Positions 1,945 to 12,739 of a DNA stretch of 64,000 bases are shown one piece after another. Location: positions 930,001 through 994,000 of the forward strand of contig NZ_CP109479.1 of the NCBI RefSeq assembly GCF_036227485.1, written 5' to 3'. Source of the DNA: Streptomyces sp. NBC_01451. GTDB lineage: Bacteria; Actinomycetota; Actinomycetes; Streptomycetales; Streptomycetaceae. Each line of letters starts with the position of its first letter. The stretch's first letter is position 1. The translations under genes were made by a program, and so were the position numbers. The notes beneath the pieces are model-generated. The model searched no databases and was not told the DNA's origin. It saw only the letters and a program-made list of their open reading frames with translations.

Positions 1945-3430
1945 GACTCCCCCGCCGCACCGTGGCGCACCGGCCCCACCCGCTCGGCCGGCCCTCGGGC
2001 TCGGCCCGCTGGGGCGACGGCTGTTCGCCGCGTTCGCCGTGGTCGCGCTGGCATCCGTCGCCCTGCTGACGGCCGCGGCGCTCGTCGGTGCCGACCGCGG
2101 GATCAGCAGCGCCCACCAGGCGGATCGTCGGCGCACCGCCGCCCGGGTGGCTGTGGCCGCCGCCGACGCGTACCGGGCCGCGGGCGGCTGGTCGGCGGCC
2201 GATCTCTCGGCCGCGCGCTCCGTCGCCGCCGCTGCCGGGGCGGTACTCACCGTACGGAACGCGGACGACGAGATGATGTCCGGCGGCTCCGGAACCATGG
2301 ACGACCACGGCATGTCCGGATCGGGTCACGGGCATCAGGGACAGGGCACAGGTTCCGGCCCGGGCGCGACCGCGCCCGTGGTGGTCGACGGCGACACCGT
2401 CGGCTCCGTGCACCTGGTCTTCTCGGCCGGTTCCGGGTCGGCGGGCCTGTCCGTCGCCTGGGGCTGGGTGGCCGCGGCCGCCGTCGGTGCCGTCGCCCTG
2501 GCCCTGGCCGTGAGCTGGTTCGTCACCCGACGCCTGACCGCTCCCCTGGTGCGGGTCGCCGCCACCGCCCGTGCGCTGGCCACCGGGGACCGCACCGCGC
2601 GGACCCGCATCGACGCACCCGGCGAGCTCGGCGAGCTCGCCCGCGCCTTCGACGCCATGGCGGACGACGTCGGCCACTCCGAGCAGGCCCGCCATCGGCT
2701 CGCCGCGGACGTCGCCCACGAACTGCGTACGCCTCTGGCCTCGTTGCGGGCGGGGCTGGAGGAACTGCGGGACGGCTACGCCGAACCCTCGGCTCGGCGC
2801 CTGGCCTCCCTGCACGACCAGGCACTGCGGCTGGGCCGCGTCATCGACGACCTCGGGGAACTGGCGGAGGCCGAGTCGGCCCGGCTCTCGCTGCACCTGG
2901 CCGAGGTGGATCTGACCGCCCTGGCCGGCGCCGCCGTGGCCGAGCACGAGGCCGAGCTGCGCACGGCGGGGCTGACCGTACGTATCGTCCCGGGCCCCGC
3001 CCCGCTGCTGGTCCACGCGGACGCGGACCGGCTGCACCAGGCCCTCGGCAACCTGTTGAGCAACGCCGCCCGCCACTGCCGCCCCGGCGACACCGTCACC
3101 GTCACCACGTCCGCCACGCCCGCCGAGGCTCTGGTCGAGGTGGCCGACACCGGTCCGGGTATCCCGGCCGACGAGCTGCCGTACGTCTTCGAGCGTCTGT
3201 GGCGCGGAGCCGGCGCGCGCACCCGGGGTGGCAGCGGAATCGGCCTCGCCGTCGTCAAAGAGCTGGTCGACGCCCACGGCGGAACGGTCTCCGCCGACTC
3301 AGGACCGAAGGGCGGGACGCGGATGACCCTCCGGCTGCCCAGGACGGAGTCACGGGGGCAACGGCACGGTTCCGGCCTCGGCGCCGAGCCTCGGGTTGCC
3401 CGACAGGCAAATACCCCCAGGGGTATTTGA
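1934..3430 (+). CDS. Sensor histidine kinase with Met/His-rich extracytoplasmic loop
   Basis: About 498 residues from GTG 1934, which overlaps the regulator stop. Order: short cytoplasmic N-terminus, TM1 (about 30-52), extracytoplasmic loop to about 172, TM2 (about 175-197), HAMP, HisKA with His262 in DVAHELRTPLASL, and an HATPase domain with NLLSNAARH, DTGPGI and GSGIGLAVV. The loop contains MMSGGS, MDDHGMS and GHGHQG (about 113-137), so it looks like a soft-metal ligand patch. The last codons lie inside the first CstR-type operator (3412-3425), so the stop codon and a promoter for the next gene are interleaved. Confidence 0.9.
   Translation: MIRETPPPHRGAPAPPARPALGLGPLGRRLFAAFAVVALASVALLTAAALVGADRGISSAHQADRRRTAARVAVAAADAYRAAGGWSAADLSAARSVAAAAGAVLTVRNADDEMMSGGSGTMDDHGMSGSGHGHQGQGTGSGPGATAPVVVDGDTVGSVHLVFSAGSGSAGLSVAWGWVAAAAVGAVALALAVSWFVTRRLTAPLVRVAATARALATGDRTARTRIDAPGELGELARAFDAMADDVGHSEQARHRLAADVAHELRTPLASLRAGLEELRDGYAEPSARRLASLHDQALRLGRVIDDLGELAEAESARLSLHLAEVDLTALAGAAVAEHEAELRTAGLTVRIVPGPAPLLVHADADRLHQALGNLLSNAARHCRPGDTVTVTTSATPAEALVEVADTGPGIPADELPYVFERLWRGAGARTRGGSGIGLAVVKELVDAHGGTVSADSGPKGGTRMTLRLPRTESRGQRHGSGLGAEPRVARQANTPRGI
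3412..3425. promoter_or_regulatory. CstR-type operator 1 (TACC-N6-GGTA)
   Basis: TACCCCCAGGGGTA is embedded in a larger 20-bp near-perfect dyad, AAATACCCC-CA-GGGGTATTT (3409-3428). It overlaps the -35 element of the rhodanese promoter and the last codons of the histidine kinase. Confidence 0.8.
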
Positions 3431-3455
3431 CGCCCCTTCCGGGCCGCCCTACTCT
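3427..3455 (+). promoter_or_regulatory. Promoter of the sulfide island left arm
   Basis: A -35 TTGACG (3427-3432) is separated by 17 bp from a -10 TACTCT (3450-3455), a good match to a housekeeping-sigma promoter. Operator 1 abuts the -35 from upstream and operator 2 lies at the expected transcription start, an arrangement that would allow tight repression. Confidence 0.7.
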
Positions 3456-3466
3456 CGGAGACAGAA

Positions 3467-3480
3467 CACCCCCGGGGGTA
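3467..3480. promoter_or_regulatory. CstR-type operator 2 (one mismatch)
   Basis: CACCCCCGGGGGTA keeps the TACC-N6-GGTA geometry with one substitution in the left arm. It lies just downstream of the -10 element and 17 bp before the GTG start of the rhodanese gene. Confidence 0.75.
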
Positions 3481-3497
3481 TTTGAGGAGGCAATCAA

Positions 3498-3824
3498 GTG
3501 GCTCGCGAAACAACACAGGAGGCGTTCGCCGCGGCCTGGGCCGACGGCGGGCTCGTGATCGACGTACGGGAGCCGGACGAGTACGCGGCCGGGCACGTAC
3601 CGGGCGCGCGGCTGATGCCGATGCACTCCGTGTCGGCCCGATGCGGTGAACTGCCGACAGACGAGACGGTGTTCGTGATCTGCGCCGGCGGCAACCGCAG
3701 CAGGACCGCCGCCGACCGGATGAACTCCCGTGGCATCGACGCCCACTCCGTGACCGGCGGCACCGGCGCCTGGGCCCGGGCGGGACACCCGATCGAAGCC
3801 GGGCACCACGAGCACGCAACCTGA
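3498..3824 (+). CDS. Single-domain rhodanese (sulfurtransferase)
   Basis: A 108-residue single rhodanese domain. The CH2A-like stretch is VIDVREPDEYAAGH and the active-site loop is CAGGNRS with catalytic Cys62, which would carry a persulfide. A strong GAGGAGG at 3484-3490 sits 7 bases before GTG 3498. It is the first gene behind a doubly operator-flanked promoter and is followed 123 bp later by the type II SQR, suggesting that it accepts or passes on sulfane sulfur made by SQR. It is cytoplasmic, with no signal or membrane segment. Confidence 0.92.
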   Translation: MARETTQEAFAAAWADGGLVIDVREPDEYAAGHVPGARLMPMHSVSARCGELPTDETVFVICAGGNRSRTAADRMNSRGIDAHSVTGGTGAWARAGHPIEAGHHEHAT

Positions 3825-3870
3825 GCGAGCACGCCTCCGGCCTCACCGCAGCCACCGCTCACCGCCCATC

Positions 3871-3898
3871 AGCCACCAGCCACCAGCCACCAGCCACT
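3871..3898. repeat. Four tandem copies of a 7-bp unit
   Basis: AGCCACC is repeated four times, the last with one change, between the rhodanese stop and the SQR ribosome site. Function unknown; it could be a slippage product. Confidence 0.7.
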
Positions 3899-3947
3899 GA
3901 AGGCCACCCGCGATCCGCACCTCGGCAGGTCGGGAAGGAGCACCGCC

Positions 3948-11705: not shown

Positions 11706-11822
11706 ATGACCGCCGGCACCCGGCAGGCAGCGGCCTCTCGGCACGGACCCGCCACGCGGGCCCGGTCGGCGCCGAAGGTCCGCAGTGGAAGTGCTGGTCA
11801 CGGCAGGCGCGATCCCCGATGA
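11706..11822 (+). CDS. Possible short ORF or gene remnant
   Basis: A 38-residue frame (MTAGTRQAAA...) is preceded by GAAGGA about 7 bases upstream, but its composition is Arg/Ala/Gly-rich and no family is recognisable. It lies downstream of operator 5 in the plus direction and could be the decayed start of a former regulon gene. It is kept only because of its ribosome site. Confidence 0.22.
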   Translation: MTAGTRQAAASRHGPATRARSAPKVRSGSAGHGRRDPR

Positions 11823-11851
11823 TCGACGCCGCCCCGAACCGGGACGTACAG

Positions 11852-11865
11852 TACCCCTAGGGGTA
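11852..11865. promoter_or_regulatory. CstR-type operator 6, autoregulatory
   Basis: TACCCCTAGGGGTA is a perfect 14-bp palindrome, 17 bp before the GTG of the repressor gene. A TACAGT -10 candidate (11847-11852) touches it, so bound repressor would block its own promoter. Confidence 0.8.
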
Positions 11866-11882
11866 TTTTCGGAGGAGTCGTC

Positions 11883-12170
11883 GTGGAACTGCAACTTGAG
11901 GGTGCGGACCTGAAGGCCGTGCTGAACCGGCTGCGCCGGGCACAGGGTCAGATCTCCGGCGTCATCCGGATGATCGAGGACGGGCGGGACTGCGAGGAGG
12001 TCGTCACACAACTCGCCGCGGCCTCCCGCGCACTCGACCGGGCCGGGTTCGCGATCATCGCGACCGGACTGCAGCAGTGCGTGGCCGACATCGAGTCCGG
12101 CCGCAGGAACGGCGAGGACACCGACGCGATGCGCGCCCGCCTGGAGAAACTCTTCCTGTCGCTGGCCTGA
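11883..12170 (+). CDS. cstR: CstR-type persulfide-sensing repressor (CsoR/RcnR/DUF156 family)
   Basis: A 95-residue all-helical family member ([18 protein letters not shown] is the signature N-terminal helix). The ligand positions are Cys37 and Cys66, 29 residues apart, while the position that is His in copper sensor CsoR (four before the second Cys) is Gly62. Loss of that His with both Cys kept is the pattern of CstR, which forms di- to tetrasulfide bridges between the two Cys on exposure to persulfide. GTG 11883 follows GGAGGAG at 11871-11877. The TACC-N6-GGTA site in its promoter, repeated ahead of sulfide genes, supports sulfur sensing rather than copper. Confidence 0.9.
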
Positions 12171-12222
12171 GAACTCACCCCGCGACAGCCGTCACCACAC
12201 CACATCTTCGAGAGTGAGCAGG

Positions 12223-12236
12223 TACCTCAGAAGGTA
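12223..12236. promoter_or_regulatory. CstR-type operator 7 (TACC-N6-GGTA)
   Basis: TACCTCAGAAGGTA lies within the 6-bp-arm dyad GTACCT-CAGA-AGGTAC (12222-12237). It is 98 bp before the DUF302 gene. The centre is less GC-rich than in the other sites, so binding may be weaker. Confidence 0.6.
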
Positions 12237-12334
12237 CTCACCCGGGCCGGAGACTCCTGGGAATCACCTCGGTCGTGCCGCCCGCACAGCCGGACGCCCG
12301 TTCGGCCCTCGCGACGACGAGAAAGGCCTACACC

Positions 12335-12739
12335 ATGCGCTATGACCGGACCGTGCAGCTCGAAACAGATTTCGCCACCGCCGTCGCCCGCACCCGCGAC
12401 GCCCTCGCGGAGCAGGGGTTCGGCATCCTCACCGAGATCGACGTCGCCGCCACGCTCAAGGCCAAGCTCGACCACGACATGGAGGACTACGTCATCCTCG
12501 GCGCCTGCAACCCGTCACTGGCCCACCGCGCCCTGGACACCGACCGCTCGATCGGCTTGCTCCTGCCGTGCAACGTGGTCGTCCGCCGCGACGGCGACCA
12601 CACCGCCGTGCAGGTCCTCGACCCGAACACGATGGTCGCGCTCACGGAACTCGACACGCTGCGCCCGGTCGCCGAAGAGGCCACCCGCCGCCTCGACGCC
12701 GCTCTCGCCTCACTCACCACACCCGGCACAGGCAACTGA
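12335..12739 (+). CDS. DUF302 family protein
   Basis: A 134-residue cytoplasmic protein matching DUF302 throughout: FATAVARTRDALAEQGFGILTEIDV, then DYVILGACNP and SIGLLLPCNVVV. Family members often sit beside sulfur and thiol genes but have no assigned reaction. Two Cys (in GACNP and LPCNV) lie in the most conserved part. ATG 12335 was chosen because it begins the domain (MRYDRTVQLETDF). An operator of the cstR type precedes it, so it is probably part of the sulfide regulon. Confidence 0.88.
   Translation: MRYDRTVQLETDFATAVARTRDALAEQGFGILTEIDVAATLKAKLDHDMEDYVILGACNPSLAHRALDTDRSIGLLLPCNVVVRRDGDHTAVQVLDPNTMVALTELDTLRPVAEEATRRLDAALASLTTPGTGN

Follow-up and report, generated by a model that had tools for sequence, protein, structure and literature searches.

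A probable CstR-controlled sulfide and persulfide detoxification island of Streptomyces sp. NBC_01451, with a candidate DevR/OsdR-type input at sqr2

How many regulators act on a streptomycete island that holds two sulfide:quinone oxidoreductase (SQR) genes among other genes of sulfur handling, and which are they? The question is raised by positions 3412 to 12739 of a 64,000-nucleotide stretch of Streptomyces sp. NBC_01451 (contig NZ_CP109479.1, positions 930,001 to 994,000; hereafter the window). The original prediction, made from the letters alone, had noticed here eight copies of a 14-bp dyad, TACC-N6-GGTA, and had taken them for operators of a CstR-type repressor encoded among them. We consider it probable that this is a sulfide/persulfide detoxification island which CstR represses and which receives a second input, from a regulator of the DevR/OsdR type, at sqr2, the gene of the second SQR. 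For the control by CstR in particular our confidence is high.

All eight dyads were verified at the positions first given, and six are indeed exact while two carry one mismatch. It is very likely, on the sequence evidence set out below, that they are operators of a CstR-type persulfide repressor; pdo denotes the gene of a persulfide dioxygenase (PDO).

3412..3425, unstranded: predicted CstR operator 1 of the rhodanese-sqr1 unit; exact; orthologous site at -87 in 4/4 relatives.
3427-3432 (TTGACG), N17, 3450-3455 (TACTCT): promoter adjoining operator 1, read from the sequence.
3467..3480, unstranded: predicted CstR operator 2 of the rhodanese-sqr1 unit; one mismatch; exact at -31 in 4/4 relatives.
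5258..5271, unstranded: predicted CstR operator of the pdo-ygaP-tauE unit; exact; orthologous site at -47 in 4/4.
8501..8514, unstranded: predicted CstR operator before the gene of a 96-amino-acid (aa) protein; one mismatch; exact 14-mer in 8/8 orthologues.
11486..11499, unstranded: predicted proximal CstR operator of sqr2-tusE-dsrE, at -72; exact; orthologous sites.
11564..11577, unstranded: predicted distal CstR operator of sqr2; exact; found in part of the relatives.
11852..11865, unstranded: predicted CstR operator of cstR itself; exact; 35/35 orthologues.
12223..12236, unstranded: possible, doubtful CstR operator before the DUF302 gene; exact.

Two patterns were counted, the 14-mer and a strict form, TACCC-N4-GGGTA. 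The 64-kb window holds 8 exact 14-mers, against 0.10 expected from dinucleotide shuffles, and 23 matches with at most one mismatch, against 6.44 expected. Ten of the 23 fall within 3412-12236, including two (4180 and 11474) that had not been listed before; the two exact matches beyond the eight sites, at 39787 and 53892, have no TACCC-N4-GGGTA core and lie inside predicted genes (39402-40790 and 52797-54269). In the whole genome (10.27 Mb) there are 68 exact 14-mers, of which the 8.8 kb of the island contribute 6 and two further CstR clusters 9; the remaining 53 amount, by a hand estimate, to about 0.05 expected per island-length stretch. The strict form is found 18 times genome-wide, five times in the island, against 6 for the reversed control. 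By these genome-wide counts, the 14-mer is not equally dense elsewhere.

Conservation was followed in 80 loci from named genome contigs and in 29 loci that scored best for CstR in other Streptomyces genomes, a 14-mer being counted if it lay within 250 bp upstream of the orthologue. One was present before every cstR (35/35), rhodanese gene (4/4, two sites at equal spacing), PDO gene (4/4) and 96-aa gene (8/8), as well as before 18 of 47 SQR2 and 4 of 9 DUF302 genes. None was found within that distance of SQR1 (0/3), YgaP (0/6), TauE (0/5), TusE (0/53) or DsrE (0/58), genes that are internal to operons, nor of the kinase (0/3) and response regulator (0/4). The reversed control occurred upstream only of TusE (1) and DsrE (2), and the 15-bp form only of TusE (1). 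Both window sites with a mismatch are exact 14-mers in relatives; in locus L042 the copy before the 96-aa gene has no TACCC core. Conserved upstream 14-mers thus mark five units, which supports five separately controlled transcription units and agrees with the predicted split over at least five transcripts. A sixth unit, at 12223, is doubtful. The site there, TACCTCAGAAGGTA, is without the TACCC core, and we leave it in doubt because cstR and the DUF302 gene are neighbours in locus L039 with no 14-mer between them. The statement that the sites always precede sulfur-handling genes or the repressor was too strong for this site and for 8501, which stands before the 96-aa gene. Orthologous sites in other Streptomyces back seven of the eight sites, 12223 being the one that they do not. 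There are also points that weaken the case for CstR. The footprints of rhodanese, PDO and SQR1 come from three to four relatives; of the 35 cstR orthologues, 29 were taken as best-scoring matches among Streptomyces genomes, and one of these, at locus L142, repeats L041. Finally, 29 of 47 sqr2 orthologues have no CstR 14-mer, so that control of sqr2 by CstR would be mainly a Streptomyces trait.

The repressor itself was examined for the residues that would make it a persulfide sensor.

11883..12170, plus strand: CstR-type repressor; PF02583, 84.6 bits against a cut-off of 22.8.

It has Cys37 and Cys66, and Gly where the copper CsoR of the same genome, aligned with it, has His. The nearest solved chain, 7mq1, was deposited as CsoR, yet in the alignment it has both cysteines and no His at that place. 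The gene is linked to PDO, rhodanese, TauE and SQR genes, and TACC-N6-GGTA is found, by sequence and conservation, at its own promoter and at those of its predicted targets. In S. coelicolor, ScCsoR (Cys37, Cys66) has ATACCn6GGTAT as its operator and comes off in the presence of polysulfide; it represses pdo, rhod and its own gene, and tauE is co-transcribed with pdo (PMC7533328). ScCsoR leaves the DNA when Cys37 is persulfidated, and the C37S protein keeps DNA binding and loses polysulfide sensing (PMC7533328). The equivalence of the cysteines in the two proteins goes by the published residue numbering, not by sequence alignment. Together, the site statistics, the orthologous sites, the cysteines and the published ScCsoR operator bear out the reading of the dyads as CstR operators, to which the CstR of the island would bind. 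Both the operator motif and this class of repressor had been described before (PMC7533328); what had been inferred is right, not new. In three loci of relatives (L036:13764-14042, L040:15279-15689 and L043:15249-15536) a second CstR-like gene has Arg in place of Cys37 and keeps Cys66. Its product may be a naturally persulfide-blind repressor, by analogy with C37S ScCsoR, which binds DNA without sensing polysulfide; in the window, no such gene lies between tauE and the 96-aa gene.

One could also think of copper. The dyads are similar to CsoR operators, and a sequence much like them is the target of copper CsoR in S. lividans (PMC3902906), as would be the case if the sites were operators of a copper-sensing CsoR and the island a copper-stress regulon. 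In the published Streptomyces Cu-CsoR operators, however, TAC and GTA are separated by nine bases (PMC3902906), i.e. they are 15-mers, and the dyads of the island, as 14-mers, are one base shorter. The matching pattern TACCC-N5-GGGTA occurs five times in the genome and 0 times for its control: at the copper-type csoR, before a CopZ-like HMA gene, before a DUF4396 gene and at two places without evident copper genes, with no copy in the island or the other CstR clusters. The Cys-His-Cys copper site is absent from the local repressor, which has Gly at the His position. On spacing, gene context and the missing His we rejected copper CsoR as the regulator of the island, and regard a copper-stress regulon as extremely improbable. 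In these genomes, operator length, 14 versus 15 bp, may serve as a simple rule to distinguish persulfide operators from copper ones.

Four CsoR-family genes are present in the genome, one of the copper type and three CstR copies, two of which are 88 and 82% identical to that of the window (across the genus, 294 of 295 genomes have a CsoR-family match, copper CsoR included in the count). Of the 18 strict sites, 14 belong to the three CstR clusters: 3 at 721 kb, 5 in the island and 6 at 9.41 Mb. In the 721-kb cluster, pdo is reduced to a 77-aa frame (L027:7519-7752) with two exact operators before it. In the 9.41-Mb cluster (L032:11282-14137), strict sites lie near thioredoxin, class-V aminotransferase (cysteine-desulfurase-like) and OsmC genes, and at its end stands an SQR2-like 5′ remnant whose two operators keep almost the same spacing. 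Since a second PDO-rhodanese-TauE-CstR set adjoins sqr2 in L037, L040, L041 and L043, we infer that a larger ancestral island was probably split or copied between the chromosome arms. The strict sites at 4713358, 5822054 and 9567976 are taken as chance occurrences because they are inside predicted genes. A lone strict site at 6193294 (L028:3795) is found directly upstream of a universal stress protein (Usp) gene.

Does CstR act alone at sqr2? Two further elements were recognized in this promoter.

11464..11477, minus strand: candidate DevR/DosR/OsdR-type box GGGACCAGTGGCCC at -50 of sqr2, from positional conservation; 8 bp from the proximal operator.
11434..11439, minus strand: GACAGT, proposed -10 of a leaderless sqr2 transcript; in 18/23 Streptomyces promoters, the window counted.

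A first scan with an OsdR matrix (26 published sites, training scores 11.3-19.2) chose a site near -186 in most Streptomyces loci, and for this reason the pattern was tested together with its position, as at most one mismatch to GGGAC-N4-G-N-CCC at -56 to -44; both this test and the choice of actinobacterial loci, made by record title, came after the result of the scan. Of 48 actinobacterial sqr2 loci, 28 have such a box (11/12 from Streptomyces and 17/36 from other actinobacteria), against 0.73% of shuffles; in control promoters it occurs in 1/48 (TusE), 0/49 (DsrE) and 0/8 (CstR) cases. The position of the GGGAC-N4-G-N-CCC form is the same in loci of Streptomyces, Lentzea and Acidimicrobiales. 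In a second Streptomyces set (nine loci read by script and a tenth, L169, separately), 10 of 10 loci combine the box at -50 with an operator at -71/-72. The way in which operator, box and a GACAGT directly before the ATG line up across Streptomyces promoters suggests that the sqr2 transcript is leaderless, with the box centre near -43. Because the box keeps its position in 28 of the 48 loci, we lean towards OsdR as a second input at sqr2.

A suitable regulator could be near. At 903 kb, beside universal-stress genes, lies the gene of a DevR-like regulator, for which the top match in the PDB is DevR (3c3w, E=3.7e-69); its distance is about 37 kb to the sqr2 promoter and 29 kb to the first operator. 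Matches to the OsdR matrix number 0.40-0.48 per kb around this gene versus 0.09 in the window, and two of the five genomic matches to a longer form, GGGACC-N3-GGCCC-N-TG, those at 904 and 920 kb, immediately precede Usp genes. In S. coelicolor, SCO0167 and SCO0216 have upstream OsdR sites of the form AGGGACCTTCGGCCCC (PMC5069765). In M. tuberculosis, 31 of the 48 Dos genes are induced by a hydrogen sulfide (H2S) donor, and the response is weaker when DosS/DosT are missing (PMC6987094); DosS senses H2S according to work cited in PMC9918477. In our searches of open-licence PMC papers we found no report of a DevR/OsdR box at SQR genes, or of control of SQR by CstR together with DevR/OsdR. Elsewhere in the window, matrix matches of 16.2 (1198-1213) and 19.2 (13775-13790) precede a response-regulator/kinase pair and a P-type ATPase fused to hemerythrin, respectively; in the product of the latter gene (13870-16209) the hemerythrin domain is C-terminal (PF00122, PF00702, PF01814). 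Another OsdR-like box, unconfirmed, lies before the DUF302 gene (12294..12309, unstranded; matrix score 13.9).

Another possibility is that the island is an ordinary CstR/ScCsoR regulon without OsdR, the -50 element of sqr2 being a conserved part of the core promoter or the site of another regulator. NarL/LuxR-type regulators other than DevR recognize similar palindromes, and all of the CstR evidence fits such a regulon. Several results speak for it or limit the case for OsdR. Upstream of sqr2 in the window, the best matrix match is a site other than the box, at -188, with a score of 4.95, and the -50 box scores lower; this second site is decayed in the window, with scores of up to 20.4 in relatives. 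The DevR-type pattern is not enriched, as there are 5 matches in the window versus 4.24 expected, and the five genomic matches to the longer form equal those of the reversed control; with both counts at chance, the case for the box rests on its conserved position. At -56 to -44, 20 of the 48 sqr2 promoters have no box; the second Streptomyces set overlaps the first (the promoter of L167 equals that of L041, and L163 is 93% like L038); and the DevR assignment comes from a search of solved structures only, with a query that lacked its first residues. A regulon without OsdR is nevertheless unlikely, in view of the single position of the pattern across Streptomyces, Lentzea and Acidimicrobiales, of the two longer-form matches at Usp genes and of the published sites at SCO0167 and SCO0216 (PMC5069765).

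The arrangement could be a composite actinobacterial promoter, an idea that we favour by a small measure. DevR/OsdR would activate sqr2-tusE-dsrE from -50, and CstR, 8 bp upstream, would block it until persulfide appears; what the kinase senses may be low oxygen or H2S itself, and the three CstR copies would be interchangeable and share operators. Substrate and product would then be read at one promoter, and the clearance of sulfide would be tied to the dormancy regulon.

The genes under this control were assigned as follows.

3498..3824, plus strand: rhodanese; PF00581.
3948..5177, plus strand: SQR1, sulfide:quinone oxidoreductase, start codon uncertain; 6oi5 (human SQOR closest), E=3.5e-98.
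5310..6695, plus strand: CstB-like PDO with two rhodanese domains; PF00753 and two PF00581 stretches.
6777..7358, plus strand: membrane rhodanese, YgaP-like; PF00581 and PF11127.
7355..8338, plus strand: TauE/SafE sulfite exporter family; PF01925.
8575..8865, plus strand: 96-aa protein, family unassigned.
9349..9822, minus strand: DsrE2-like sulfur carrier; PF13686; Cys118 in 61/61 alignments.
9851..10168, minus strand: TusE/DsrC-family protein with a single, penultimate Cys104; TIGR03342; Cys104 in 62/62 alignments.
10186..11427, minus strand: SQR2, Cys162/Cys335; NF049943, 557.5 bits against a cut-off of 525.
12335..12739, plus strand: DUF302 protein; PF03625.

The gene list of the original prediction (rhodanese, SQR, CstB-like fusion, membrane rhodanese, TauE, second SQR, TusE-like, DsrE-like and DUF302) is thereby confirmed throughout. 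SQR1 has Cys172/Cys352, and its closeness to human SQOR, which we take to mean a type II SQR, agrees with the type first given. The PDO is matched by 3r2u and 3tp9 over nearly its full length and combines a metallo-beta-lactamase-fold PDO with two rhodanese domains, the make-up of the CstB type. For the 96-aa protein no match was found in Pfam or NCBIfam. SQR2 matches a type III SQR model and keeps its active-site cysteines in 79/80 and 80/80 alignments; its gene forms one operon with those of the DsrE2-like and TusE-like proteins. SQR2 also exceeds the cut-off of a selenoprotein-subtype model, a candidate reading that we rejected, as both active-site positions are Cys with no internal stop there. 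Likewise rejected was a hairpin in the sqr2 leader, GCCCATGCCCC...GGGGGTATGGGC, with an apparent stem over the start codon, the arms of which are, by eye, not conserved in relatives.

With these proteins, the island might serve mainly energy or thiolation, the SQRs feeding electrons to quinone and DsrE/TusE sulfur to biosynthesis, with detoxification secondary. It would fit such a role that sqr2-tusE-dsrE stays together in the loci of relatives and that the carrier cysteines are invariant; among 295 genomes of the genus the SQR2 module is rare, with 11 carriers at E<=1e-100 (the present strain counted), which suggests a special niche. PDO, TauE and a persulfide repressor are, however, the published set for removal of sulfane sulfur (PMC7533328), and no Sox or sHdr family was found among the island proteins scanned, the rest of the genome not having been searched for them. 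We therefore regard a mainly energetic or biosynthetic role as improbable and return to detoxification. Reduced CstR would sit on the 14-bp operators of rhodanese-sqr1, pdo-ygaP-tauE, the 96-aa gene, sqr2-tusE-dsrE and cstR. Once sulfide is oxidized to persulfide, Cys37 would become persulfidated, for which Cys66 would be needed, CstR would leave the DNA and the pathway would be made. The SQRs would oxidize sulfide, rhodaneses, DsrE and TusE would carry the sulfane sulfur, the CstB-like PDO would oxidize it to sulfite and TauE would export the sulfite. A DevR/OsdR-type response regulator at about -43 of the leaderless sqr2 start would activate under hypoxia, nitric oxide or sulfide. The binding of this CstR to its sites, that of OsdR to the -50 box, the leaderless start and the order of the sulfur relay are what we infer here.

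The S. aureus cst operon comprises CstR, a CstB-type PDO-rhodanese, TauE and SQR. All four are shared by the island, in line with the parallel drawn at the outset; unlike the cst operon, it is spread over five units, has two kinds of SQR, and has TusE and DsrE as separate proteins. Another close system is the ScCsoR circuit of S. coelicolor (SCO0619-SCO0621 and the adjoining pdo), with its Cys37/Cys66 repressor, operator ATACCn6GGTAT, PDO, TauE, rhodanese and autoregulation (PMC7533328). That circuit has four genes and no SQR, DsrE or TusE, whereas the island has two SQRs, a sulfur-carrier operon, five units and three repressor copies; its authors themselves contrast their SQR-less circuit with SQR-containing ones (PMC7533328). 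What is new here is the presence of two SQRs and of an sqr-tusE-dsrE operon, which extends the four-gene persulfide circuit to a full sulfide-to-sulfite pathway in Streptomyces, the three near-identical CstR genes with 14 of 18 strict genomic sites in their clusters, and the DevR/DosR/OsdR-type box at a fixed -50 of sqr2.

With the OsdR regulon of S. coelicolor and the DevR-DosR regulon of M. tuberculosis the locus shares a box of the GGGAC-N4-G-N-CCC type, a Usp-rich neighbourhood and a DevR-like regulator (PMC5069765, PMC6987094); it differs in that Table 1 of the OsdR paper names no sulfide:quinone oxidoreductase (PMC5069765). The prediction that follows is that many Actinobacteria place sulfide oxidation under their dormancy regulator. 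A precedent for two inputs is provided by sqr-pdo of B. licheniformis, which responds to sulfane sulfur through the CstR-like YrkD and to sulfide through the two-component system NreBC (PMC9918477). The yrkD-nreBC-sqr-pdo cluster and the island have in common a CstR-like repressor, a two-component second input on sqr (proposed in our case), DsrE, rhodanese, TauE and PDO. NreBC is encoded in the cluster and senses sulfide (PMC9918477), whereas the activator proposed here is a DevR-like protein encoded about 37 kb away, with its box 8 bp from the operator. The proposed arrangement would thus resemble that of Bacillus with OsdR in the place of NreC, the two being likened by role, not by sequence.

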